Shown: one piece after another, positions 7,096 through 38,260 of the stretch
Position numbering within the stretch: position 1 is the first letter of the stretch
Layout: each line of letters opens with the position of its first letter
NCBI GenBank assembly: GCA_004213995.1
Contig: SGZJ01000011.1
Location: forward strand, 1 to 41,683
Length of the DNA: 41,683 nucleotides
Source of the DNA: Flavobacteriales bacterium
GTDB taxonomy: Bacteria; Bacteroidota; Bacteroidia; Flavobacteriales; Flavobacteriaceae
Direction: 5' to 3'
Translations under genes and position numbers: made by a program
The notes under the pieces: generated by a model
What the model was told of the DNA's origin: nothing
Seen by the model: the letters and a program-made list of their open reading frames with translations, nothing else
Databases searched by the model: none

Positions 7096-7341
7096 CTATA
7101 GTTTAATTAACATATTAATAATTAAAGTTCCATTGTTGTAAATAGGAGACTCAGATTTTAAATTATATTCACTTAAAACTTGTTTGACCAGCTCTTTCAT
7201 TCGATCACTATTTCCAGTAATAATTTCAACTTCTTGAGCCTTATCTACTATACATTTACCAATAAAATTATGTACTTTTCCATTTACATCTCTGTAAAAT
7301 GTACCATGTAAATCTAATTTGTAAGATTTATAATTATTCAT
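7096..7341 (-). CDS. Mini Smr-domain-like protein, 81 aa
   Basis: An 81-residue cytoplasmic protein made of little more than one Smr-like fold. Key pieces are the LDLHG motif at residues 9-13, where Smr endonuclease and RNA-binding domains have their conserved DLHG, and VEIITGNSDRMKELV (about 38-52), equivalent to the H-I-I-x-G-x-G strand-helix element, followed by VLSEYNL and an NNGTLII strand. The canonical HGxG is replaced by TGNS, which may reduce nuclease activity. It is the first gene of the operon leading through the 42-aa protein to the hydrolase and SOUL gene, from a -7 box at 7364-7371. Target nucleic acid is unknown. Confidence 0.75.
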   Translation of the reverse strand: MNNYKSYKLDLHGTFYRDVNGKVHNFIGKCIVDKAQEVEIITGNSDRMKELVKQVLSEYNLKSESPIYNNGTLIINMLIKL

Positions 7342-7363
7342 AATTAATTAAAAGATTAAGTAA

Positions 7364-7482: not shown

Positions 7483-8286
7483 ATGGGAAAATATGCATTA
7501 ATTACAGGTTCATCGTCTGGAATAGGATTTGAAATAGCTAAAATATTAGCTGATAAAGGGTTTAATATTGTTCTTACAGCAAGAAGAAAAGAAAGGTTAC
7601 TTGAAAATTCAAAATATATTATTTCAAATTACAATGTCAATTGTGATTATATAAGCTGTGATTTAAGTGACAAAAGTTCACCAAATAAAATCTTTGATTT
7701 TTGTAAAAAAAACAATTACGATGTTGAAATTCTAGTTAATAATGCTGGATATGCAATCCCCTCGTCGTTTATTAAAACATCTATGGAAGATGAAGAGAAA
7801 TTTTTGAGAGTTTTAGGTATTTCTGTAATAGCACTTAGCAAATTATTTTTACCATCAATGGTTAAAAATAAAAAAGGTAAAATTATGATAATCTCATCAG
7901 TAGCTGCATTCGCACCTCCAACTTCATTTTTATCATTATATGGCCCAGTTAAGATGTTTATGAACAGATTTAGTGATTCAATCAATTCTAACTATAACAG
8001 AAAAGGTATTACATCAACAGCCGTATGCCCTGGTTTTACCTATACTGAATTTCATTCTACTAATGGAGTTCAAAAACAAATGGATAGCATGCCAGGATTC
8101 ATGAAAAAAAGTGCAACAAGAATTGCTAAAGAAGCTATTTCAGATACGTTTAAAGGAAAATCAGTGAGTATTCCTACAAAAACTTACAAACTATTTGTAT
8201 TGGTTTTAAAAGTTACTCCAAAATTTTTATTTCCACTAGTATTTAAAATGCTTTCAAAAACAAGTAATTCTAACAAAAGAGGTTAA
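7483..8286 (+). CDS. Short-chain dehydrogenase/reductase (classical SDR)
   Basis: A 267-residue NAD(P)-dependent oxidoreductase of the classical SDR type, closest in style to the DltE/YqjQ group. The cofactor motif TGSSSGIGF is at 8-16, with an ARRKERL segment after beta-2 that suggests NADPH preference. NNAG follows at about 86-89, the catalytic Ser lies in IISSVAAF (138-139), and Tyr153-x3-Lys157 lies in YGPVK. PGFTYTEFH near 190 is the usual post-catalytic loop. The C-terminus is hydrophobic (LVLKVTPKFLFPLVFKML), which may touch the membrane. Substrate cannot be deduced. The stop interlocks with that of the convergent DinB-like gene (TTAA at 8283-8286). Confidence 0.92.
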   Translation: MGKYALITGSSSGIGFEIAKILADKGFNIVLTARRKERLLENSKYIISNYNVNCDYISCDLSDKSSPNKIFDFCKKNNYDVEILVNNAGYAIPSSFIKTSMEDEEKFLRVLGISVIALSKLFLPSMVKNKKGKIMIISSVAAFAPPTSFLSLYGPVKMFMNRFSDSINSNYNRKGITSTAVCPGFTYTEFHSTNGVQKQMDSMPGFMKKSATRIAKEAISDTFKGKSVSIPTKTYKLFVLVLKVTPKFLFPLVFKMLSKTSNSNKRG

Positions 8287-21672: not shown

Positions 21673-21674
21673 CG

Positions 21675-21748
21675 TGACCTCGGTAGGATTCAAACCTACA
21701 ACCTCTTGAGCCGTAATCAAGTGCACTATTCAGTTATGCTACGAGGCC
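21675..21748 (-). tRNA. tRNA-Arg (anticodon ACG)
   Basis: A 74-nt cloverleaf. Acceptor GGCCTCG pairs with CGAGGTC (one G-T wobble) and the discriminator base is A. D-stem is GCAT/GTGC. The anticodon stem is CTTGA/TCAAG around loop TTACGGC, so the anticodon is ACG (A34 normally modified to inosine). T-stem is GTAGG/CCTAC around TTTGAAT. The 3' CCA is not encoded. D-loop is AACTGAATA, with G18-A19 where G18-G19 is usual, and the T-loop has T56 where C56 is usual; the tertiary 19-56 pair therefore appears as A-U. A15 and T48 also form an A-U Levitt pair. It has its own -7 box and terminator. Confidence 0.95.
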
Positions 21749-21772: not shown

Positions 21773-21915
21773 AATTTATTTAAATAAATCTGAAATCGAT
21801 TTTAATACTTTATAAATAGTCATAAAAATTATTAATTTTTTTTTAATATCTACAGGTTAAAACAAAGCTTATGTAGAATTATTTTAAATATTATTTAAAA
21901 TTAGTCTAAATAAAT

Positions 21916-21946
21916 TTTGTAAAATTAATATCCTGTAATATATTTG
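21916..21946 (+). promoter_or_regulatory. Consensus Bacteroidota promoter of the DUF4856-imelysin-HTTM-receptor set
   Basis: TTTG (21916-21919), exactly 19 bases, then TATATTTG (21939-21946). This matches both consensus elements at the ideal spacing. The transcript start would be near 21951, giving a leader of about 25 bases to the ATG at 21976. No Fur-type inverted repeat is recognisable by eye. Confidence 0.8.
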
Positions 21947-21975
21947 CTGCTTAATATTTAAAAAACTATAAAACA

Positions 21976-23190
21976 ATGAAAAATTACATAATTTTATTGC
22001 CTTTGGTTCTAATTTCATTCACATTCACATCATGTGATAATGATGACAATGACGATCCGGTTATACCAACTATTCAAGCTCCGGAAACATATTCTTTTGA
22101 AAGAAATGGAGAGTCTACAATCAGCTACTCTGGACAAACAACTAGACTAGAACAAGCAGATGAATTATATGCAGCTTTAAACTCCTCTGGATCTACTGCA
22201 TCTGGATTAGACCTAATGTTTAATGGATCTGACGGTTCCTCAGCAGGGTTTGCTAATGATTTATTAAATGGAACATCAAAAATTATCGGTAGCAAAACAG
22301 CTTCATCTACTTTAGCAGGAAGTGCTACTACCAAGGAAAGATTCAACCAGTATATTGCTGATTTTGCTTCAAATGTAGCTCCAAATTGGAATATGGATGC
22401 GGCTCCAGGAATGCCTGGTTCAATTACTTCACCTGACGGAAGTTCTACATACCAAATTAATGCTATGGGTCAAGAATTAGATCAGTTATTCTTCAAAGGG
22501 TTAATTGGTGCATTTACTTTAGACCAAATAGTTAACAATTATATTCATCCAAATCAATTAGATTCTGGATCAAGAATTGATGACAATGATAATGGTGTAT
22601 TATCTGATGGTAAACCTTATACAGATATGGAACACAAATGGGATGAAGGATTTGGATATTTATATGGACAAGAAGGTGATTTAGATGACGTAGGTTCTAC
22701 TATAGGAAGTGCGCCAGCAGGTTCAGGTAACTTACTTATGAAATATTTTAAAAAAGTAAATGCTGAAGGTGGTTACGAGCCAGGTATTGGTCAAACTGTA
22801 TACGATGCATTTATAATGGGAAGAACTGCAATTGTAAACAGAGATTATGACCTTAGAGAGGCTCAAGCTGACATTATTCAAGTTGAATTATCTAAAGTAA
22901 TTGGATACTATGCAATACATTACTTAAATGATTACATAGCAAAAGTTGATGCTGGTAATATTGCTAAAGCTCATCACTCACTCTCTGAAGCTTATGGTTT
23001 TATATTAAGCCTACAATTTACTAATAATGGTAATGATGAGCCATACATGTCCAAAGCAGATGTTGAAAGTTTTTTAGACACATCTTTAGCTGACTTTCAT
23101 AATGTCAATCAAGCTGATATCATAGCAAATGGTAGTGGAATGATTGATATAATTAAAGCTGCTTACGGAAACACTTTAATGATTGATTAA
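21976..23190 (+). CDS. DUF4856-family lipoprotein of the iron-uptake cluster
   Basis: A 404-residue lipoprotein with lipobox TFTSC (Cys20), followed by an acidic linker (DNDDNDDP). The mature part is largely helical, with YSFERNGESTISYSGQTTRL near 44-63, NNYIHPNQLD near 187, MEHKWDEGFGYLYG near 218-231 and LSEAYGFILSLQF near 340, which matches the DUF4856 family. The domain is often encoded beside imelysin-like proteins, as here, and I infer a related helical-bundle, metal- or haem-linked role at the outer-membrane periplasmic face. Biochemical function is not established. It is the first gene after the consensus promoter at 21916 and is followed by a perfect hairpin. Confidence 0.85.
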   Translation: MKNYIILLPLVLISFTFTSCDNDDNDDPVIPTIQAPETYSFERNGESTISYSGQTTRLEQADELYAALNSSGSTASGLDLMFNGSDGSSAGFANDLLNGTSKIIGSKTASSTLAGSATTKERFNQYIADFASNVAPNWNMDAAPGMPGSITSPDGSSTYQINAMGQELDQLFFKGLIGAFTLDQIVNNYIHPNQLDSGSRIDDNDNGVLSDGKPYTDMEHKWDEGFGYLYGQEGDLDDVGSTIGSAPAGSGNLLMKYFKKVNAEGGYEPGIGQTVYDAFIMGRTAIVNRDYDLREAQADIIQVELSKVIGYYAIHYLNDYIAKVDAGNIAKAHHSLSEAYGFILSLQFTNNGNDEPYMSKADVESFLDTSLADFHNVNQADIIANGSGMIDIIKAAYGNTLMID

Positions 23191-23205
23191 TTTTAACTTT
23201 TTTTT

Positions 23206-23239
23206 AGAACTCAGTATCATTATTTAGATACTGAGTTCT
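23206..23239 (+). terminator. 13-bp perfect hairpin between DUF4856 and imelysin genes
   Basis: GAACTCAGTATC (23207-23218) pairs perfectly with GATACTGAGTTC (23227-23238) around an 8-base loop, with a further A-T pair outside. The T-run after it is interrupted (CTTTATATTT), so it may be a weak terminator, an attenuator or an mRNA-stability hairpin that lowers expression of the next genes relative to the first. Confidence 0.65.
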
Positions 23240-23240
23240 T

Positions 23241-23248
23241 TATATTTG
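23241..23248 (+). promoter_or_regulatory. -7 box abutting the imelysin start (possible leaderless transcript)
   Basis: TATATTTG begins 2 bases after the hairpin and ends 6 bases before the ATG at 23255. It could give the imelysin gene its own nearly leaderless transcript. No -33 TTTG at ideal spacing, because that region is the hairpin. Confidence 0.45.
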
Positions 23249-23254
23249 CAAGCT

Positions 23255-24337
23255 ATGATAAAAAAAATATTTTCATCTTCATTTGTATTAATTTTACTAA
23301 TTTTTTCTTGTAGTTCTGACAGTGATGACAATTCTAGTGAAGTATGGGAACAAAAATCTGAAATGCTTACAAATTGGGCAGATAATTTTATTATCCCCTA
23401 CTATACAACTTTGACTAATAAACTAGAAAACTTAGAGGTATCAGCTAATACATTTACTAGTTCTAGAAATCAACAAAATCTTGAAAATTTAAGAAATAGT
23501 TTTATAAATGCTTATTTATCATGGCAATATGTAGAAATGTTTGATATAGGACTTGCTGAAGAAACCTATTACAAATCTAAAATGAATATTTACCCTACTA
23601 CAGTTTCTAGAATTGAGTTAAATATTCAAAATGGGAATACCAATTTTAATAATAGTAATAATTTTTCAGCACAAGGTTTTCCTGCGCTTGATTACTTATT
23701 ATTTGGTATTGATAATAGCGATGAACTTATTATTTCAAAATATAATTCTGATTCACGATATTTATCTTACCTATACGAAATTATCGATCAAATGCTCCAA
23801 AACACCTACATTATTGTTGATGATTGGGAAAGCTATAGAAACACCTTTATTAGTTCAGTTCGAAATACAGCTACCTCAAGTGTAAATAAAATGACTAATG
23901 ACTTTATCTACTATTACGAAAAAGGATTTAGAGCGAACAAATTTGGTATACCGGCTGGAGTATTTTCTGGAGGTACTTTGCCTGAGAAAGTTGAGGCTTT
24001 TTACAATCAAAATATTTCCAAAGCATTAGCCTTAGAAGGTTTTCAAGCAATTAAAAACTTTTATAATGGTAATGGAGCTGTTAGTTTAAGACAATACATA
24101 TCTGAAGTTTCAACTGAAGAGTATTCTGAATTATCTACAGATATATTAGATCAGTTTAATATTGCTGAGAATTTAATAAATGATCTTAATGAAAATTTTT
24201 ATAATCAAATTTTAACAGATAATATTAAAGTTCTTGAAACATATGATGCAATTCAACAAGGAACTATTTTATTAAAAACAGATATGCTTTCTGTTTTACA
24301 AATCCCAACTGACTATGTTGATGCAGATGGTGATTAA
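23255..24337 (+). CDS. Imelysin-like (peptidase M75/IrpA-type) iron-cluster lipoprotein
   Basis: A 360-residue lipoprotein with lipobox LIFSC (Cys19) and an acidic linker. WEQKSEMLTNWADNFIIPYY, then NAYLSWQYVEMFDIG and GFPALDYLLFG, and the later KGFRANKFGIPAGVFSGG match the two-bundle imelysin-like fold. In this family (IrpA, ICMP, Algp7-like) a GxHxxE motif is expected; here the same place reads G141-F-P-A-L-D146, without the His and with Asp for Glu. An iron-related role is known for relatives, but peptidase activity is doubtful here. I use ATG at 23255; a TTG at 23246 lies inside the -7 box. It sits between two hairpins. Confidence 0.88.
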   Translation: MIKKIFSSSFVLILLIFSCSSDSDDNSSEVWEQKSEMLTNWADNFIIPYYTTLTNKLENLEVSANTFTSSRNQQNLENLRNSFINAYLSWQYVEMFDIGLAEETYYKSKMNIYPTTVSRIELNIQNGNTNFNNSNNFSAQGFPALDYLLFGIDNSDELIISKYNSDSRYLSYLYEIIDQMLQNTYIIVDDWESYRNTFISSVRNTATSSVNKMTNDFIYYYEKGFRANKFGIPAGVFSGGTLPEKVEAFYNQNISKALALEGFQAIKNFYNGNGAVSLRQYISEVSTEEYSELSTDILDQFNIAENLINDLNENFYNQILTDNIKVLETYDAIQQGTILLKTDMLSVLQIPTDYVDADGD

Positions 24338-24366
24338 ATCATATTAAACAAAACAAATTTAATTTA

Positions 24367-24400
24367 AGATTCTCTATCTATAATAGAGAGTCTTTTTTTT
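24367..24400 (+). terminator. Intrinsic terminator squeezed between imelysin and HTTM genes
   Basis: GATTCTCTAT pairs with ATAGAGAGTC (one T-G wobble) around a 5-base loop and runs straight into eight to nine T. Only 5 bases separate it from the ATG of the next gene at 24406, and no promoter box is visible between. Readthrough would be required for HTTM and receptor expression. Confidence 0.88.
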
Positions 24401-24405
24401 TAAAC

Positions 24406-25779
24406 ATGAATTCGAAAATTAATAGTTATATAAATTCATACACCAATGCTAGCCCTTTAGCTGTTTTTAGAATTGGGTTTGGTTTAATGATGCTATATAG
24501 TATACTAAGGTTTTGGAATAAAGGATGGATCTACACACTTTACATAGAGCCTAAATTTCATTTTAAATACTATGGATTTGAATGGGTTAGAGATTTAGGA
24601 GATTTCACTTACATATTATTTGTAATCTGTATAATTAGCTCAATTTTTATAACAATTGGTTATAAATATAGATTTTCCATGATTTTGTTTTTTTTATCAT
24701 TTACCTACATAGAATTAATAGATAAAACAACATATTTAAATCATTATTACTTCATAAGTATTCTAAGTTTTTTAATGATTTTTTTACCTGCTAATGCATA
24801 TTTTTCAGTAGATAATATTTTAAAGAAAAAAAGCTACAAAGAAATTCCCAAATGGTCAATTGATTGCATTAAACTATTACTTTCAATTGTATATTTTTAC
24901 TCTGGTTTAGCAAAAATTAACACAGATTGGTTGTTAAATGCTATGCCTTTAAAATTATGGTTGCCTTCAAAATATGATCTTCCTTTAATTGGTGAAACAT
25001 TTATGCAACAAGAATGGGTTCATTATTTTATGAGCTGGGGTGGTATGTTATATGATTTATCAATACCATTTTTATTGTTATACAAAAAGACTAGAATAAT
25101 TGGATTCGTTCTTGTAATATTTTTTCATCTCTTTACTGGAGTTCTGTTTCCGATTGGAATGTTCCCGTACATTATGATAGTTGGGTCTCTTATATTCTTC
25201 GATTACACTGTTCATGAAAAAATAATTAAATGGATTCAAAAAATAATTGAACCAATTAAAAAACAATTCAAAATTGAAGAAAATATAAAAGAAGAAAAAA
25301 TAATAATAAAAAATAGAAAAATTGTATTATCAATAATTTCTGTGTTTTTTGTAATTCAACTATTTTTACCCTTTAGATATCTCTTATATCCAAGCGAATT
25401 ATTTTGGAGCGAGGAAGGTTATAGATTTTCCTGGAGAGTTATGTTGGTTGAGAAAATAGGTTACACAACTTTTAAAATTAAAAGTAAAAATAGCGAATCT
25501 TACTTTTATGTAAATAATGAAGAGTTTTTAACTTCCTTTCAAGAAAAGCAAATGAGTTTTCAGCCAGACTTTATTTTAGAATATGCTCACTATTTAGGGG
25601 ATTATTATTTGTCTAAAGGCTATGGGAGAGTTGAAGTATATGCAGAAAGTTATGTGTCATTAAACGGTAGAACTAACAAACGGTTTATAAATTCTGAAGT
25701 AGATCTTTACAAAGAGAAAGAATCTTTTAAAAATAAAAAATGGATAATTCCAATAGATGATGAAATTAAGGGTTTTTAG
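24406..25779 (+). CDS. HTTM / vitamin K-dependent gamma-carboxylase-like membrane enzyme
   Basis: A 457-residue integral membrane protein with a horizontally-transferred-transmembrane-type (HTTM) core of about seven or more helices in residues 17-275 and a C-terminal beta-rich domain (about 300-457). YLNHYYFISIL (His113) aligns with the human GGCX segment containing His160, and SGLAKINTDWL (Lys170) aligns with the segment containing the catalytic base Lys218. FHLFTGVLFPIGMFPYIM aligns with the GGCX helix that contains SIGMFSYVM. RYLLYPSELFWSEEGYRFSW starts the C-terminal domain. It overlaps the receptor gene by 23 bases. Substrate and cofactor are unknown; it could carboxylate or epoxidise. 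Known family bacterial members may lack carboxylation, so this is inference. Confidence 0.88.
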   Translation: MNSKINSYINSYTNASPLAVFRIGFGLMMLYSILRFWNKGWIYTLYIEPKFHFKYYGFEWVRDLGDFTYILFVICIISSIFITIGYKYRFSMILFFLSFTYIELIDKTTYLNHYYFISILSFLMIFLPANAYFSVDNILKKKSYKEIPKWSIDCIKLLLSIVYFYSGLAKINTDWLLNAMPLKLWLPSKYDLPLIGETFMQQEWVHYFMSWGGMLYDLSIPFLLLYKKTRIIGFVLVIFFHLFTGVLFPIGMFPYIMIVGSLIFFDYTVHEKIIKWIQKIIEPIKKQFKIEENIKEEKIIIKNRKIVLSIISVFFVIQLFLPFRYLLYPSELFWSEEGYRFSWRVMLVEKIGYTTFKIKSKNSESYFYVNNEEFLTSFQEKQMSFQPDFILEYAHYLGDYYLSKGYGRVEVYAESYVSLNGRTNKRFINSEVDLYKEKESFKNKKWIIPIDDEIKGF

Positions 25780-28186
25780 AATATTTATTTTTGTAAGCTT
25801 ACTCTCAATATATTCCAATGCAAATAATAAAGTTTTTGGAATTATTACTGAAGAAGGCTCCAATACAACAATAAGTAATGTAAATATTTATGATGACGAT
25901 ATTGGTTTAGTTGCAGTCTCAGACTCAAAAGGCTACTACGAATTTTATTCTGATTCTAAATCATTAATTCTATATTACTCAATTGAAGGAAGACCCTTTA
26001 TTGAAAAACAAATTTCATTAGAAAATGATTATAATATTGACATAGTTTTTCCAGCTTCAGTTGAAGAACTTTCTGAAGTTCTCGTGACCTCGATAAATAG
26101 AAAAACTTTTGAATTAAAAAGATTAAATGACGTAGTTGGCACATCTATTTACGCTGGCAAAAAATCTGAAGTTGTTCTGGTCAATCAATCAATGGCTAAT
26201 CTAGCCTCAAACAATTCTAGGCAAATTTATAGTCAGATAGCTGGGTTAAACATTTTTCAAAATGATGATGCAGGCTTGCAAATTCATATAGGAGGAAGAG
26301 GCTTAGATCCAAATAGAACATCAAACTTTAATACACGTCAAAATGGATATGACATGAGTGCTGATGTTTTAGGCTATCCTGAAAGTTATTATTCTCCTCC
26401 AGCTGAAGCTCTTGAAGAAATTCAAATTGTAAGGGGGGCCGCATCACTACAATATGGAACACAATTTGGTGGTCTTGTAAATTTTATAATAAAAAAACCA
26501 GTAAAAAATAAATTTATGGAGGTTATTTCTAGAAATACACTAGGAAGCAATGGCCTGTATACAAACTTTACAAGTGTTAGTGGAACTAATAAAAAACTAA
26601 GCTATTACGCATATGTAAACAGTAAAAAAGGAGATGGTTTTAGAGATAATTCAAGTTACGATTCAACAAACTCACATTTATTTTTAGCATATGATTTTAA
26701 TCAAAAAACAAAACTATCATCCGAGGTAAGTTATCTTACTTATTTGGCTCAACAAGCTGGTGGTCTTTCTGACAATATGTTTAATCAAGATCCATTTCAG
26801 TCTAATAGATCGAGAAATTGGTTTGAATTGAAATGGCTTCTTTACAATATAAAATTAGATCATAAATTTTCTGAAAAAACAAATTTCACATTAAACTTTT
26901 TCGGATTAAATTCACAAAGAAATGCTTTAGGGATTAGATACAATCGAGTTGATCAAATAGATTCGGGCGAAGAGAGAGATTTAATTAAAGGAGATTTTAA
27001 TAATTACGGTTTAGAATCTCGAATATTGCACAATTATAATTTTCTGAACAAGAAATCTATATTCTTGTTTGGTCTTAAATATTATAAATCTGATAACTCA
27101 TCTGTTCAAGGTCCTGGAACTGATGGATTCGGTCCTAATTTTGACTTCCAATACCAAGACTATCCGTACTACAACAATCAATCTAATTATAAATACCCTA
27201 ATCAGAATATATCACTATTCACAGAAAATATATTTTATATTTCAGACAAAATTTCTCTAACTCCAGGGATTAGATATGAAAACATAAGAACAGAAAGTGA
27301 TGGATACTATAGTCAGATTAATTTTGATAATGCAGGAAATGTCATATATGACAATACAGTTTTTGAAAATAAAGTTAGAAACAGATCTTTTTTATTATTT
27401 GGGCTGGGTAGTAGTTATAAACCAAATAAATACATAGAAATGTATGCTAATGCATCACAAAATTACAGGTCTGTGACTTTTTCGGATATCAGTATTTTTA
27501 ATCCTGCATTTGTAATAGATCCAAATATTTCTGATGAAAAAGGATATACAGTCGATCTAGGTATTAGAGGAAATAATAAAAAATTGATTTCATATGATAT
27601 TAGCCTATTTCACTTATTTTACAATGATAGGATTGGTTTTACTCAAATTGTTTCTGATGACGGAAATATAAAAAGTCAAAGAGGAAATGTTGGAAATGCA
27701 GTAATTTTTGGAGTGGAGTCTATTATAGATTTTAATCTAAACAAAATATTTATACGAGATAATAATTTCATTTTTAACTACTTTATAAACACTTCAGTAA
27801 TTGAATCAGAATATATTAAGTCAGAAATCAATGGAATTACAGGAAAGAGGTTAGAGTTTGTCCCAAAGCTAAATATAAAAACTGGAGCAAAAATTGGATA
27901 CAAAAATCTTTTGTTAAATATTCAATACACCTATCTTTCTAATCAATTTACTGATTCATCTAATTCTGTTGAAAGTAATTTAAGTGGGGTTATAGGTCAA
28001 ATTCCAGCTTATGACATATTGGATTTCTCTTCATCATATAAACTTAAAAACTATAAATTAGAATTTGGAATAAATAATATTTTAGACAATCATTATTTTG
28101 TAAGACGAGCAACAGGTTATCCAGGGCCTGGAATTATTCCTTCTCCACCACGCAATTACTACATAACTTTACAGCTTAAATTTTAA
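25757..28186 (+). CDS. FecA-like TonB-dependent receptor of the iron cluster
   Basis: An 809-residue outer-membrane receptor. A short signal peptide (about 1-22, SIYSNA) is followed by a carboxypeptidase-regulatory-like domain (about 24-96), then a TonB-box region and plug. The plug reads SQIAGLNIFQNDDAGLQIHI, then GGRGLDPNRT and the ending LEEIQIVRGAASLQYGTQFG, the classic FecA/FhuA-type plug pattern, before the 22-strand barrel, which ends TLQLKF with a terminal Phe. It most resembles ferric-citrate-type receptors; the actual siderophore is not deducible. The ATG is doubled (ATGATG at 25757) inside the HTTM stop region, so translation is likely coupled. Confidence 0.92.
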   Translation: MMKLRVFRIFIFVSLLSIYSNANNKVFGIITEEGSNTTISNVNIYDDDIGLVAVSDSKGYYEFYSDSKSLILYYSIEGRPFIEKQISLENDYNIDIVFPASVEELSEVLVTSINRKTFELKRLNDVVGTSIYAGKKSEVVLVNQSMANLASNNSRQIYSQIAGLNIFQNDDAGLQIHIGGRGLDPNRTSNFNTRQNGYDMSADVLGYPESYYSPPAEALEEIQIVRGAASLQYGTQFGGLVNFIIKKPVKNKFMEVISRNTLGSNGLYTNFTSVSGTNKKLSYYAYVNSKKGDGFRDNSSYDSTNSHLFLAYDFNQKTKLSSEVSYLTYLAQQAGGLSDNMFNQDPFQSNRSRNWFELKWLLYNIKLDHKFSEKTNFTLNFFGLNSQRNALGIRYNRVDQIDSGEERDLIKGDFNNYGLESRILHNYNFLNKKSIFLFGLKYYKSDNSSVQGPGTDGFGPNFDFQYQDYPYYNNQSNYKYPNQNISLFTENIFYISDKISLTPGIRYENIRTESDGYYSQINFDNAGNVIYDNTVFENKVRNRSFLLFGLGSSYKPNKYIEMYANASQNYRSVTFSDISIFNPAFVIDPNISDEKGYTVDLGIRGNNKKLISYDISLFHLFYNDRIGFTQIVSDDGNIKSQRGNVGNAVIFGVESIIDFNLNKIFIRDNNFIFNYFINTSVIESEYIKSEINGITGKRLEFVPKLNIKTGAKIGYKNLLLNIQYTYLSNQFTDSSNSVESNLSGVIGQIPAYDILDFSSSYKLKNYKLEFGINNILDNHYFVRRATGYPGPGIIPSPPRNYYITLQLKF

Positions 28187-28192
28187 AAAATA

Positions 28193-29152
28193 TCAAAAAT
28201 AGTTAAGACAATTAGGTGGGAAATAAATCAAATCTTCTTTTTCAAAACTTACACAAATGACCTCATCTTTTTTGAAAGGTACAGAGCTAAATAAATTCCA
28301 ATTTTCTTGTCCATGCTTAGCAGTAATATTATACTCTTTACCTTGAAATAATGACTTTTTTACTACAAGTTTAATATCAGATTCTTCAACGATATTTATT
28401 TTTTCAGGTCTAATATAGTAAGGCTTAGTATCCATATCATACTTATTGATATTACCTAGTATTCTTGCACAATAGCAATTTGCTGGCTTACAATACATCT
28501 CAACTGGATCGCTATATTGTTGAAGTTTACCAGCTTTAAAGACTAATATTTTGTCAGCGATATTAAGAGAATCATTAATATCATGTGTTACTAATATTGT
28601 CGTAGTTTTAGTGGTTTTAATTATTTGATAAATCTCATCTCTTATCGAATGCTTTATAGCTACATCTAAATTACTAAATGGCTCATCTAACAGCAATAAA
28701 TCGGGCTCTCTAATTAATGCTCTAGCGATACATGCTCTTTGTTGCTCACCACCTGAAAGTTCATGAGGAAACCTATCGACTAAAGAAGATAAATTTGTCA
28801 AAGACAACATGTATTCTAAATTTTTAATATACTTTTTATCAAGGTTAAAAATTATATTATCTTTTAAATTTAAATGAGGAAAAAGTGGATAATCCTGAAA
28901 AACAAAACCTATTTTTCTATCCTGAGGTCGAACAAAAAAATCTTTATCATTAAGAGTTTTGTTATTTAGAACTATAGATCCAGAATTTATATTTTCCAAA
29001 CCTGAAATACATTTTAAGAAAGTTGTTTTACCTACTCCACTTTCGCCTAAAAAAGAAACAATTTCACCCTTTTCAACTGAGAAATTTAAAGACTCAATAA
29101 GAGGTTCTTTTTTATTATAAAACTTTACAAGATTAGTTACTTTAAGATGCAT
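28193..29152 (-). CDS. fbpC: Ferric iron ABC transporter ATPase (FbpC/FutC-type)
   Basis: A 319-residue cytoplasmic ATPase that powers iron import through the permease. Walker A GESGVGKTT (36-44), Q-loop VFQDYPLFPHL, signature LSGGEQQR (132-139), Walker B LLLLDEP (152-158) and switch His190 are intact. A C-terminal TOBE-like part follows (about 245-319). Before it lies an unusual Cys group, MYCKPANCYCARILGN (Cys221, 226, 228), at a place that usually lacks Cys. It is the third gene in fbpABC order and overlaps the permease by 11 bases, with the downstream end only 6 bases from the convergent receptor gene. Confidence 0.92.
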   Translation of the reverse strand: MHLKVTNLVKFYNKKEPLIESLNFSVEKGEIVSFLGESGVGKTTFLKCISGLENINSGSIVLNNKTLNDKDFFVRPQDRKIGFVFQDYPLFPHLNLKDNIIFNLDKKYIKNLEYMLSLTNLSSLVDRFPHELSGGEQQRACIARALIREPDLLLLDEPFSNLDVAIKHSIRDEIYQIIKTTKTTTILVTHDINDSLNIADKILVFKAGKLQQYSDPVEMYCKPANCYCARILGNINKYDMDTKPYYIRPEKINIVEESDIKLVVKKSLFQGKEYNITAKHGQENWNLFSSVPFKKDEVICVSFEKEDLIYFPPNCLNYF

Positions 29153-30755
29153 TTATCTGTTTGTTAATAACATATTTTAAAAAAACCAACATAACACTAC
29201 CAATTAAAATAATAGCCAACGAATAACTACTTGACTCTAACATCATCTCCTCAATAGCAAACTCATAGGTTTGTGTCGCCAAGGTATCAAAATTAAATGG
29301 CCTTAAAATTAATGTTATTGGTAATTCTTTCAATAAGTCAACAAAGGTAACAATAAATGCAGTTATTAGCGCAAGTCTATTAATTGGAAAATGAATTCTT
29401 TGAAGTATTTTAAATGGTCCTAAACCAAGTGTTTTAGCAGTTTCATCATATGATTCAGGTTGCTTTTCAAGACTAGATTTAATTGGAGATTTACCTACAG
29501 CTAGAAAACGAAAAACATATGCATAAATTAAAACATAGAATGATCCAACTAAGGAATAAGAATTAAGCAATGGTATTTTAGTAAATAACAAAATAACCCC
29601 CAAACCTATTACAGCTCCAGGGATAACATATCCTAAAGATGTAACTTGACTAATAAATGTGTTAAATTTTAATTTAGATATTTTTTCAACATAAAGAAAT
29701 AGTAATGCTGTGACAATTATTAAAACAGTCGAAATTGTTGAAACTTGTATTGAATTTAGACTAAGTTCTATTAATCTGGAAAAGTCAATATTTTTAATAT
29801 TGAGAATACTATTGTTTAGTATGTAAAAAAATGGTATTAAAAAACCTAATAAAAAGGGAAGAGAACATAGACTGTATATATATAAATATTTATCAGTAGT
29901 TGGAATACTTAGTTTTTCTATTTTTGAATTTGCAGAGTAATAAAATTTAGATTTTTTATGACTTAATTTTTCTAAAAACAAAATTGTGAAAACTATAAAT
30001 ATAAGTAGGCACGCAAGCTGAATGGCGGTATTTTCATTTCCCATTGAAAACCATGCTCTAAAAATTCCTGTTGTATAGGTATTAACACCAAAATATTTTA
30101 CAGCTCCATATTCATTTAAAACTTCCATAATAACTAAAAATAAACCAGAAAAAATTGCAGGTTTTGACAGAGGAATAATAACCTTAAAGAATAGTTTTGT
30201 TGAAGAAAGACCTAGATTTTTAGACATATTTATGTATGTTGAACCAATCAGACTAAAAGAAACTCTGGAGGCTGTATATACATATGGATATAATGCTAAA
30301 CCTAATATAATTCCTAAAATTTCTATCTGTAAATAATCCTTATTGAATATGTCTGAAAGATCAGGATAATTATTTCGTAGAAAAGATTGAAATGGACCGG
30401 TATAACTTAACAGATCGCTGTAAGTAAAGGCCATTATATATGTTGGAATTGCTAATGGTAAAAATAGAGCTATATCAAAAAATACTCTAAACTTAAATTT
30501 ATAATTACTTACGTACCATGCTGGAAAAATGCCAAATAATAAAGCAAAAAAACTTGTTATAGCTATTAAATAAAATGTATTAAAACTATAATCTAAAAGA
30601 AGGTTTTTCCATAAATAAACAAAAGCGGTTTGTTCAATTTCAAAAATATTACTAAAAAGAAATATTATAGGTAGAAGTAGGAATAAAGCTATTAAACTAC
30701 TACCAATAATCCATCTCTTATGTTCTAATTGAACAATTTTTTTTATTATTTCCAA
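29142..30755 (-). CDS. fbpB: Ferric iron ABC transporter permease (FbpB-type)
   Basis: A 537-residue inner-membrane protein with two homologous halves and about twelve transmembrane helices, the fused FbpB layout. The first half carries the EAA loop region near FSLIGSTYINMSKNLGLSST, and the second carries the counterpart SYDETAKTLGLGPFKIL, which contacts the ATPase. Both halves have the P-A/P-T-Y-I-M and GAVIGLG segments typical of binding-protein-dependent permeases. Overlaps FbpA by 10 bases and FbpC by 11 bases, so one mRNA is certain from spacing. Substrate Fe3+ is inferred from the binding protein. Confidence 0.92.
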   Translation of the reverse strand: MEIIKKIVQLEHKRWIIGSSLIALFLLLPIIFLFSNIFEIEQTAFVYLWKNLLLDYSFNTFYLIAITSFFALLFGIFPAWYVSNYKFKFRVFFDIALFLPLAIPTYIMAFTYSDLLSYTGPFQSFLRNNYPDLSDIFNKDYLQIEILGIILGLALYPYVYTASRVSFSLIGSTYINMSKNLGLSSTKLFFKVIIPLSKPAIFSGLFLVIMEVLNEYGAVKYFGVNTYTTGIFRAWFSMGNENTAIQLACLLIFIVFTILFLEKLSHKKSKFYYSANSKIEKLSIPTTDKYLYIYSLCSLPFLLGFLIPFFYILNNSILNIKNIDFSRLIELSLNSIQVSTISTVLIIVTALLFLYVEKISKLKFNTFISQVTSLGYVIPGAVIGLGVILLFTKIPLLNSYSLVGSFYVLIYAYVFRFLAVGKSPIKSSLEKQPESYDETAKTLGLGPFKILQRIHFPINRLALITAFIVTFVDLLKELPITLILRPFNFDTLATQTYEFAIEEMMLESSSYSLAIILIGSVMLVFLKYVINKQINAS

Positions 30756-31774
30756 CCTGATTTATCAAATATTTCAATGGCTTTATTTCTAAAAACCCCC
30801 AATTGGTTCAAATCTAGAATATCTTTTTTGAAAGAGCCCCATTTTTTTACAATTTCGTTTGGCTCGACGTTTGGATTAGCTGGATATTCATAACTAGTAT
30901 TAGTGTAAGTTTTTTGAGCAGACTCACTTGTTAAAAATTCCATTAATTTAATCGCATTTTCTTTGTTAGGAGCGTTCTTCGCCAACCCAATTCCAGAAAC
31001 GTTAATATGACTTCCTGATTCTTCTTCACCCTGATTAGGGAAAAAGACACCAACAGAATTACCCGCTTTTATTTCTTCATCATTTTCTGATGAAAGTAAA
31101 AGTCCAATGTAATATGAATTTACTATAGCAAGGTCTCCTTGTCCAGCTGTAATAGCCTTTACTTGATCTCTATCATTTCCTTTTGGGTCTCTAGCAAAAT
31201 TTTTAACAAGTTCACTAGCCCAATTTGTAGCTGCTTCTTCCCCTCTATTGGCTACAATTGAGGATAACAAGGCTTGATTGTATGCGTTAGATGAAGATCT
31301 AACTAAAACTTTATTTTTCCACTTCTTATCTGTTAAATTAGCATATGTAGATAATTCACCTACATCTACCCTGTCTTTACTGTAAACTATAATTCTGGCT
31401 CTATATGTTATTGGTATCCAGTATCCATTAACATCTTTTAAGTCAATATCAACATTTTGATAAATTATTGGTGAAGATATTTTTTGAAGTAAATCTAAAT
31501 CTTTTGCTTTTTGGAGTTTACCAGCATCTACAGTGATAAATAAATCAGCTGGACTATTATCACCTTCATTTTTAAGACGCTCTATAAGTTCATCAGCATT
31601 AGCCTTTACAACATTGACTTTTATTCCAGTTTCTTTTTCAAAAGCTTCATATTGCTTCTCATCAACTTTATAGTGTCTTTGACTGTATAAATTAATTTCA
31701 TCAGACTCCTTAGTAGTCTCAACACAACTTGACAAAACTAAAATCGTCGATATAAATAATATAACTCTTTTCAT
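30746..31774 (-). CDS. fbpA: Ferric iron-binding lipoprotein (FbpA/FutA-type)
   Basis: A 342-residue periplasmic solute-binding lipoprotein with lipobox LVLSSC (Cys17). The mature start INLYSQRHYKVDEKQYEAFE matches FutA/FbpA, where H34-Y35 lie in the iron site; the paired tyrosines Tyr221-Tyr222 in NSYYIGLL are the conserved Fe-ligating pair. SSSNAYNQALLSSIVANRGE and GSHINVSGIGLAKNAPNKEN are also diagnostic. It delivers Fe3+ to FbpB. First gene of fbpABC, under a perfect consensus promoter at 31804-31834. Confidence 0.94.
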   Translation of the reverse strand: MKRVILFISTILVLSSCVETTKESDEINLYSQRHYKVDEKQYEAFEKETGIKVNVVKANADELIERLKNEGDNSPADLFITVDAGKLQKAKDLDLLQKISSPIIYQNVDIDLKDVNGYWIPITYRARIIVYSKDRVDVGELSTYANLTDKKWKNKVLVRSSSNAYNQALLSSIVANRGEEAATNWASELVKNFARDPKGNDRDQVKAITAGQGDLAIVNSYYIGLLLSSENDEEIKAGNSVGVFFPNQGEEESGSHINVSGIGLAKNAPNKENAIKLMEFLTSESAQKTYTNTSYEYPANPNVEPNEIVKKWGSFKKDILDLNQLGVFRNKAIEIFDKSGWK

Positions 31775-31803
31775 CTGATTAAATTTTTAAATTATTAAAG
31801 AGA

Positions 31804-31834
31804 CAAAATTATGTTTATTTAGAACAAATCCAAA
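31804..31834 (-). promoter_or_regulatory. Consensus promoter of fbpABC
   Basis: Reading the minus strand: TTTG (31834-31831), exactly 19 bases, TAATTTTG (31811-31804), both consensus elements. The transcript start would be near 31799, giving a leader of about 25 bases before the ATG at 31774. No clear Fur-type palindrome is seen. Confidence 0.8.
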
Positions 31835-31849
31835 TAAAATAGATACTTT

Positions 31850-37156: not shown

Positions 37157-38260
37157 TTAAAGGTTAGTTAAATTTAAGGCTTGAAAATCATTCCAATGAG
37201 TTTTTTGAATAATTGTACCCTCATGTAATTTTATTGCAGCAGGATTAGATCTAACTATGGTTTTAAGTGCAGTTTCATCACAAAAATAAAAATCAATATC
37301 AATATCATTTTCAGATTCAAAACTATTAACGTCAATTTCTCCAGATGCGGTAAGTCCTATTACTTTGTAATCATTTTTAACAGCTAACTCAACAGTCTCT
37401 TTCAAACCAACTATCGCATCGCTATTTGTTTTTAAAATATTATAAAAAACAAAAATTATTAGTTTTTGTTCTTTCATAAGCACATCTGTATAATCAATAT
37501 CTCCTAATTCCATAGAAAAGTCAAGGATAGGAGGTTCATAGCCTTCTTCGATAAGTTCTGTTTCTACAGAGACAAAAGTTCCTTCCGAATCTGGAAAATT
37601 ACCAGATGTTGATATTACTTTCTTTTCTCCATTAATATTAAATAGCCAATCATATCTAAATACCGCTTTTTTTGAATCTTCAGGAATCACCATATTATCA
37701 ATAATATTAGCTCCCACTTTATAAGGTCTAAAGTCAATTAATGGTAAATGAGATAGTACTTGATTAACAATTACTATGCATAAAATCAAAGAAATTGATG
37801 GGAAAATATATAATAATTTATTATTGAAAAGCGGCTTAATATACTTTAAGCCAATCATAATTATAACGATTAAAACTAGTAGTATTACATCTTTTGTAAA
37901 GGATTCCCAGGGTGTCAATTTAATAGCATCACCAAAACATCCACAGTCAGTAACCTTATTAAAATAAGCAGAATACCAGGTTAAAAAAGTAAAGAAGACT
38001 ATCATTGCAAAAAGACTGTAAATAGTGAATTCTTTTTTTAATCCAATCAAGAGAAATACCCCTAATAAAACTTCTAAAACCACGATAAATATAGCCAATG
38101 GCAATACATAGGGCAGTAAAAAGTCAATATTAAAAACTGTAGGTCCAAAATACTCCTCAAGTTTAAAAGAAAATCCAACAGGATCATTAATTTTTATTAA
38201 ACCTGAGAATATAAATAATAAACCAACGAGGATTCTCGAAATATTAACTAGGTACTTCAT
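37157..38260 (-). CDS. BT_3928-like DoxX/MauE-type membrane protein with thioredoxin-like tail
   Basis: A 367-residue inner-membrane protein. Four helices in the first 170 residues form a DoxX/MauE-like bundle, starting VGLLFIFSGLIKINDPVGFS; a TDCGCFGDAIKLTPWESFTKD loop has the Cys-Gly-Cys motif of this group. The remainder (about 200-367) looks like a thioredoxin-like periplasmic domain (QKLIIFVFYNILKTNSDAIV, then KNDYKVIGLTASGE and SNPAAIKL) but lacks a CxxC, so a redox role relies on the membrane cysteines. It sits 3 bases after DUF1599 in the five-gene operon. Confidence 0.85.
   Translation of the reverse strand: MKYLVNISRILVGLLFIFSGLIKINDPVGFSFKLEEYFGPTVFNIDFLLPYVLPLAIFIVVLEVLLGVFLLIGLKKEFTIYSLFAMIVFFTFLTWYSAYFNKVTDCGCFGDAIKLTPWESFTKDVILLVLIVIIMIGLKYIKPLFNNKLLYIFPSISLILCIVIVNQVLSHLPLIDFRPYKVGANIIDNMVIPEDSKKAVFRYDWLFNINGEKKVISTSGNFPDSEGTFVSVETELIEEGYEPPILDFSMELGDIDYTDVLMKEQKLIIFVFYNILKTNSDAIVGLKETVELAVKNDYKVIGLTASGEIDVNSFESENDIDIDFYFCDETALKTIVRSNPAAIKLHEGTIIQKTHWNDFQALNLTNL

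Follow-up and report, generated by a model that had tools for sequence, protein, structure and literature searches.

The window analysed here, a stretch of 41,683 nucleotides of contig SGZJ01000011.1 from a Flavobacteriales bacterium, contains two converging arms of genes that together form a putative iron-acquisition locus (Table 1). The four-gene arm on the forward strand encodes a lipoprotein of the DUF4856 family, an imelysin-like lipoprotein, an HTTM protein related to the vitamin K-dependent gamma-carboxylases (VKGC) and a TonB-dependent receptor. The three-gene arm, fbpABC, runs towards it on the reverse strand. Six bases separate the ends of the two arms, while the HTTM and receptor genes overlap by 23 bases. 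This layout agrees in genes, coordinates, strands and gap with a first-pass annotation made from the DNA sequence. The genome (G000) comprises 1.27 Mb and is 75.6% complete; among named genomes, those closest to it in HTTM sequence are metagenome-assembled genomes of Flavobacteriaceae (94% and 83%).

Table 1. Features of the two converging arms, with positions in the window.
Feature	Position	Strand	Evidence or remark
Upstream Fur-box-like site	21871..21889	+	2 mismatches to ATTTAGAATTATTCTAAAT; consensus PMC5609570
Second Fur-box-like site	21893..21911	+	22 bases downstream of the first, directly before the -33 element
Bacteroidota-type promoter TTTG-N19-TATATTTG	21916..21946	+	Pattern scan
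DUF4856 lipoprotein	21976..23190	+	Pfam PF16148, E=1.1e-86
Terminator-like hairpin, DUF4856/imelysin gap	23206..23239	+	13 pairs
Imelysin-like (M75) lipoprotein	23255..24337	+	Pfam PF09375, E=3.6e-29
Terminator-like hairpin, imelysin/HTTM gap	24366..24394	+	12 pairs
HTTM + VKGC lumenal domain protein	24406..25779	+	PF05090, E=8.5e-77; PF22777, E=3.5e-57
FecA/siderophore-type TonB-dependent receptor	25757..28186	+	Domain match
fbpC, ATPase	28193..29152	-	Domain match
fbpB, permease	29142..30755	-	Domain match
fbpA, FutA1-like Fe3+-binding lipoprotein	30746..31774	-	PDB 2pt1, E=7.2e-97
Bacteroidota-type fbpABC promoter TTTG-N19-TAATTTTG	31804..31834	-	Pattern scan
Fur-box-like site overlapping the fbpABC promoter	31817..31835	-	3 mismatches

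Results

Conservation of the operon

The first-pass annotation had proposed neighbourhood conservation as a check, and the four genes do co-occur elsewhere. We fetched the 80 best-matching HTTM loci of named genomes with 8 kb flanks, and 74 of them show the exact order DUF4856-imelysin-HTTM-receptor; the six others are, for the most part, rearranged or on cut contigs. The order is also retained in distant families of the phylum. Among the named strains with the operon is Bizionia argentinensis JUB59 (L115), in which mliR has been deleted (PMC9478572). Among 119 relatives, DUF4856 is present in 34, all of which contain an imelysin (34/34), and an HTTM orthologue (at least 45% identity) occurs in 31 of these 34 genomes versus one of the 85 others.

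Regulatory sequences

The window has just two copies of the pattern TTTG-N19-TANNTTTG, one at the start of each arm, where the first-pass annotation had placed TTTG-N19-TAnnTTTG. Both matches end about 30 bases upstream of the first ATG of their own arm. As at least two matches were obtained in 15 of 100 shuffled sequences, the count alone is unremarkable; it is the location at both arm starts, rather than the number, that carries the weight. A scan for sigma-70 promoters was uninformative (75 sites found, 75 expected).

Fur boxes of Riemerella anatipestifer have been reported to follow ATTTAGAATTATTCTAAAT (PMC5609570). With up to three mismatches, this consensus has four matching sites in the window, and three of them are at the two promoters; counted by strand there are six matches, with 0.46 expected per window, and no shuffled sequence gave as many. 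The fourth site (7326-7344, three mismatches) precedes a gene at 7483 for a short-chain dehydrogenase. Across related loci, a site with up to three mismatches was found within 250 bases before the DUF4856 gene in 72 of 76 cases; the corresponding figures were 13 of 483 for other genes and 2 of 380 for shuffles, and the same scan gave no site before HTTM or the receptor. In a wider set from the phylum, 22 of 27 loci have a Fur-box-like site at up to four mismatches. Judged by these conserved sites at its promoter, the operon is a predicted member of the Fur regulon. Genes of R. anatipestifer with matching annotations have been reported to respond to iron and Fur: RAYM_09779 (receptor), RAYM_09784 (vitamin K-dependent gamma-carboxylase), RAYM_09789 (imelysin) and RAYM_09794 (hypothetical protein) rise 2.1-3.1 (as printed) without iron (PMC5609570, 2017). 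From its place in the gene order, RAYM_09794 is probably the DUF4856 protein.

Terminator-like hairpins recur within the operon. They lie between the first and second genes in 33 of 76 related loci (7.9 in shuffles) and between the second and third in 42 of 79 (2.9 in shuffles), and no recurring one precedes the receptor gene in these loci. Between the window and its sister sequence L093 the stems are maintained by paired changes. The hairpins may bring about a stepped expression, with the lipoproteins above the enzyme and the receptor.

The HTTM protein retains a vitamin K-type active site

Sequence similarity links the HTTM protein to human GGCX (6.5e-44 as a single sequence, 8.3e-67 with a profile), and so does the predicted fold (1.4e-21 in Foldseek; VIA Z 31.7 with a root-mean-square deviation of 3.1 over 430 residues, versus 9wfc). 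The homology spans GGCX residues about 53-505 and the shared fold residues about 42-507; the part beyond ~507 is absent. Residue equivalences were mapped from the sequence alignment, and conservation was counted in 125 orthologues. For GGCX it has been described that K218 takes the proton from vitamin K hydroquinone, that the Glu side chain is bound by N159, H160 and Y395, and that a pocket of Phe residues accommodates menaquinol-4 (PMC12589487). The catalytic base corresponds to K170 (125/125 orthologues), N159 and H160 to N112 and H113 (each 124/125), W223 to W175 (125/125), and F286, F294 and F299 of the quinone pocket to F240, F248 and F253 (124-125/125); at the Y395 position the orthologues have Tyr or Phe. 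H160 and W223 also count among the residues of the quinone pocket. Because the equivalents of K218, N159, H160, W223 and the Phe pocket are essentially invariant, the quinol-using half of the chemistry has very probably been kept. N158, K217 and M401 are replaced by L111, A169 and V345, and GGCX catalysis does not require K217 (PMC12589487). Membership in the VKGC/HTTM family by homology stands, though with these replacements the function may differ.

A canonical vitamin K cycle was considered and rejected, as VKOR (PF07884) was not found in the 75.6% complete genome G000 and was found in just 5 of 60 relatives. A second HTTM/VKGC-like clade (L210, L211), about 35% identical, is common in Flavobacteriaceae and has the same catalytic Lys and Asn-His. 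It adjoins ribF-like genes (FAD synthetase/riboflavin kinase) instead of iron loci and was set aside.

Replacement by a membrane hydroxylase, and operons with DHOR

At locus L058, the position of HTTM is occupied by an unrelated membrane hydroxylase of family PF04116. We found 17 relatives of this hydroxylase in 295 genomes of the class, nine of them beside DUF4856-imelysin-receptor units without HTTM. The gene is placed before the unit (L230, L232, L233, L235), behind it (L236, L238) or divergently (L243-L245), and at L047 a PF04116 hydroxylase gene lies just past the receptor. A search at E up to 1e-5 detected no HTTM in any of the 11 genomes with a hydroxylase operon.

Three further loci (L207-L209) have operons of the order imelysin-DHOR-imelysin-HTTM with neither DUF4856 nor receptor, preceded by Fur-box-like sites with 2-4 mismatches; DHOR was called by Pfam in L207, and by position and length in L208 and L209. 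As HTTM closes these operons in which DUF4856 and the receptor are missing, the imelysin is its most constant partner. HTTM is not a simple substitute for DHOR, since both coexist there. A search of G000 (75.6% complete) detected no DHOR (PF06537), and the locus does not have the composition of EfeUOB. In other systems a haem peroxidase nearly always accompanies the imelysin (PMC3143127), which by analogy supports a need of the imelysin class for a redox enzyme.

Properties of the two lipoproteins

The DUF4856 protein has an invariant lipobox Cys20 followed by DNDDNDD, which resembles a surface-export signal. Glu167, Glu219, Glu224 and Glu338 are invariant. Its model has a pLDDT (predicted local distance difference test) of 90; Foldseek gave no clear match, and the best VIA rows (alpha-catenin, Z 7.1) are helical bundles of doubtful meaning and do not include imelysins. 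The idea of a hidden imelysin thus found no support, either from a sequence match or from a clear fold match. With the profile NF038033 for FEA1-related lipoproteins, the window protein scores 20.5 bits, below the cut-off of 250; weak matches occur in 20 of 54 DUF4856 members, the best at 1.7e-9.

The second protein belongs to the imelysins, with 102.7 bits for Pfam M75 (cut-off 23.5) and profile matches to the structures 3n8u (4.8e-18), 3pf0 and 4ecg. It has GFPALD in place of GxHxxE and so lacks the motif of the ICMP/EfeO type; a GFPALDYLL(Y/F)-type motif is present in the imelysins of many relatives. The protein ends in DADGD (24323-24334). A D-x-D-G-D at the extreme C-terminus was found in 106 imelysins and in no other open reading frame of the loci scanned, and an imelysin with this ending is the element most often common to HTTM contexts. 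As a target of HTTM the tail, which is nearly universal in this class of imelysins, was discarded, because it is just as common in operons of the hydroxylase type or without HTTM.

Surface-export signals (LES) have been described for lipoproteins of Bacteroidota (PMC5080379). Both window lipoproteins have the polar residue and acidic run after the lipobox Cys, and at positions +2 to +8 at least three acidic residues are present in 65 of 73 DUF4856 proteins and at least two in 70 of 75 imelysins. Because of this resemblance we would locate both lipoproteins on the outside of the cell together with the receptor, where they would catch iron.

Association with fbpABC

A Fe3+-binding protein, a permease and an ATPase are all present in the second arm, as in FbpABC/FutABC. 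FbpA is nearest to the FutA1 structure, and by sequence it is clearly predicted to be of the Fe3+-binding FutA/FbpA type, in line with the Fe3+ import that the first-pass annotation had assigned to this arm. Among the 80 named HTTM loci, fbpABC lies within the 8 kb flanks in seven, in several arrangements. The pairing might have arisen by chance within a single genus, as the exact adjacency of the window is seen in the own genus and this FbpB occurs in just 7 of 34 DUF4856 genomes. However, fbp genes recur close to the operon in other genera in convergent, collinear or upstream arrangement (L140 and L159 have them collinear and downstream of the receptor, and L122, L163, L167, L168 and L033 have them nearby); fbp and operon are within about 12 kb of each other in 5 of 6 evaluable relatives that have both; and a Fur-box-like site precedes fbpA. 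We consider an accident very improbable.

Neighbouring genes

Genes for a PF14376 haem-binding-domain protein or a ferritin-like protein often adjoin the operon (L034, L036, L040, L047, L032, L116). DUF6607 adjoins it in L049/L122, and a similar protein is found in L163. In L103, L106, L116 and L128 (11-16 kb) a convergent cluster directly downstream of the four-gene operon contains an imelysin with a DGD tail, an open reading frame of about 470 amino acids (probably DHOR) and a second imelysin. The HTTM orthologue of L206 in genome G018 (51%) is at the usual chromosomal site, beside a gene for an outer-membrane barrel protein of 918 amino acids. In the window itself, tRNA-Arg(acg) and a terminator-like hairpin (21674-21748, reverse strand) lie between a phosphoenolpyruvate carboxylase gene and the operon, and 37157-38260 encodes a MauE/DoxX-type membrane protein.

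Discussion

The four genes are highly likely to constitute an iron-import unit. The first-pass annotation had seen in them one uptake machine whose HTTM protein modifies or tunes a partner, possibly at Glu or Asp residues; the iron locus and the unit of four genes are borne out, the modification of such residues is not. The conserved Glu residues of the lipoproteins are kept in hydroxylase operons as well, so that no particular target stands out.

The best explanation of the whole, held with modest confidence, is a Fur-repressed iron import in which HTTM is a menaquinol/O2 enzyme carrying out an oxidative step. It builds on the conserved gene unit, the Fur-box-like sites, the homology and catalytic residues of HTTM and the hydroxylase swap, and proposes a surface location, a stepped expression, a direction of iron flow, and a substrate and product of the enzyme. 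Under iron scarcity, Fur would be released from both promoters. The first arm would yield DUF4856 and imelysin in excess, since the internal hairpins would damp transcription, and HTTM and the TonB receptor in smaller amounts. At the surface, the lipoproteins would capture iron or a ferric complex and pass it to the receptor, and FbpABC would, in this genus, move Fe3+ across the inner membrane. HTTM, as an inner-membrane enzyme of the vitamin K carboxylase type, would bind menaquinol, use O2 and perform one oxidative step on which this class of imelysins depends; a PF04116 membrane hydroxylase (diiron-type) would meet the same need in other lineages. Among the possible steps we would put maturation of the imelysin or of another exported partner foremost, an assignment that we make tentatively. 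The full proposition, an O2-dependent maturation of surface iron-capture proteins by a menaquinol-driven VKGC-type enzyme that has repeatedly been exchanged for a PF04116 hydroxylase, is rather doubtful as it stands.

Several observations weigh against such an oxidative step or loosen its link to the operon. Tenacibaculum dicentrarchi (L168) has both enzymes, the hydroxylase occupying the usual HTTM position and HTTM following the receptor gene. DUF4856 and the hydroxylase gene are separated by the Fur-box-like site in four hydroxylase-type operons; there, the hydroxylase may be linked but outside the Fur unit and transcribed apart. Genome G037 (L033) has the operon with neither an HTTM orthologue nor a hydroxylase nearby; the oxidative step is therefore not essential everywhere. 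Conversely, G018 (L206) has an HTTM orthologue, and neither imelysin nor DUF4856 was found in the genome. The Fisher values for co-occurrence count related genomes as independent, and for DUF4856 no recognisable solved fold was obtained by profile search, Foldseek or VIA. When HTTM-type and hydroxylase-type operons were compared by differential conservation, no Glu of the lipoproteins was found to be lost where HTTM is absent, and the conserved acidic residues of the lipoproteins do not set the two types apart; nothing in either lipoprotein is confined to HTTM operons in such a way as to mark a target. The positions that do differ with the presence of HTTM are E107 and D524 of the receptor and D346 of the imelysin (TTG-start numbering), the latter being exchanged for Glu in 5 of 11.

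One rival view is that HTTM is a true gamma-glutamyl carboxylase, converting Glu to gamma-carboxyglutamate (Gla) in imelysin or DUF4856 for a tighter Fe3+ site. The catalytic Lys, the Asn-His of the Glu pocket, the quinone pocket and the full fold including the lumenal domain would all suit such an enzyme; GGCX uses menaquinol (PMC12589487), and DUF4856 has four invariant Glu residues. These same residues are, however, conserved in hydroxylase-type operons as well. The replacement of N158 in the Glu pocket by Leu and of K217 by Ala, the absence of the GGCX region past ~507, and the absence of VKOR from the own genome and 55 of 60 relatives also make a carboxylase unlikely. Alternatively, HTTM might modify no protein and couple menaquinol and O2 to the oxidation of periplasmic iron or of its ligand, thus taking the part that EfeB/DHOR peroxidases have in other imelysin operons. 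The usual haem peroxidase partner of imelysins (PMC3143127), the lack of a detected DHOR in the window's genome and the ability of another O2 enzyme to fill the HTTM slot fit this idea. We judge it improbable, as HTTM coexists with DHOR in L207-L209, no metal site is known in VKGC enzymes and PF04116 hydroxylases act on hydrocarbon chains.

Members of PF04116 characteristically hydroxylate lipids, and the common substrate of HTTM and hydroxylase could thus be a lipid, e.g. the lipoproteins' acyl anchor or a lipid of the outer membrane required by the complex. That both are integral membrane proteins and replace each other agrees with this, but VKGC chemistry on lipids is not known, HTTM retains the Glu-binding Asn-His, and a number of hydroxylase genes are possibly not part of the Fur unit, so that a lipid substrate seems quite improbable. 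As to the cargo, the receptor might take up another ligand, and the PF14376 genes adjoining the operon in several genomes could point to haem or another metal imported under Fur control. The iron link of imelysin and FEA1-like relatives and the binding of Fe3+ by FutA-type FbpA make a cargo other than ferric iron highly improbable.

The first-pass annotation regarded the system as undescribed. This has to be qualified, as known protein families are involved and one species already has a published iron response, with consecutive R. anatipestifer genes of matching annotation standing in an iron/Fur table (PMC5609570). In the open-licence literature we found no paper naming DUF4856 or treating the four genes as one system, and none assigning a role in iron uptake to a bacterial HTTM/VKGC protein. 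What appears to be new is the description at system level, together with the intact vitamin K-type active site, the link to DHOR and the PF04116 swap. Bacterial HTTM/VKGC proteins are common, and the one described here is tied to iron uptake throughout the phylum by gene order and Fur-box-like sites. The hydroxylase swap restricts the chemistry to a membrane step that depends on O2 and offers a clean genetic test, so that the use of oxygen for a chemical step in the uptake of iron by bacteria can be tested. Such a step would partly explain how marine Flavobacteriaceae gather scarce iron.

Comparison with known systems

One close parallel is the R. anatipestifer locus RAYM_09779-RAYM_09794 (PMC5609570), in which receptor, VKGC, imelysin and a hypothetical protein are consecutive and iron/Fur regulated, as here; it is a table listing without functional work, and the hypothetical protein is not called DUF4856 there. 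The imelysin-DHOR operons (Pseudomonas PA4370-PA4373, EfeUOB-like; PMC3143127) are likewise Fur-controlled and combine imelysin lipoproteins with a redox enzyme. In contrast, the unit of the window has DUF4856, a VKGC-type HTTM and a TonB receptor, lacks DHOR/EfeB and EfeU, and its imelysin is without the GxHxxE motif. Human GGCX shares with HTTM the fold of residues ~42-507, the catalytic Lys, the Asn-His and the quinone pocket; HTTM differs in the missing C-terminal part and in the replacement of N158, K217 and M401, and no propeptide-bearing substrate or VKOR is known for it. The FutABC/FbpABC importers consist of the same binding protein, two-domain permease and ATPase, whereas in the window the fbp genes converge with a TonB receptor operon and the binding protein has a lipoprotein signal. 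Finally, the SusCD-type pairs of Bacteroidota likewise encode surface-type lipoproteins together with a TonB receptor; in the unit described here SusD is absent, the lipoproteins are DUF4856 and imelysin, and a membrane enzyme is added.

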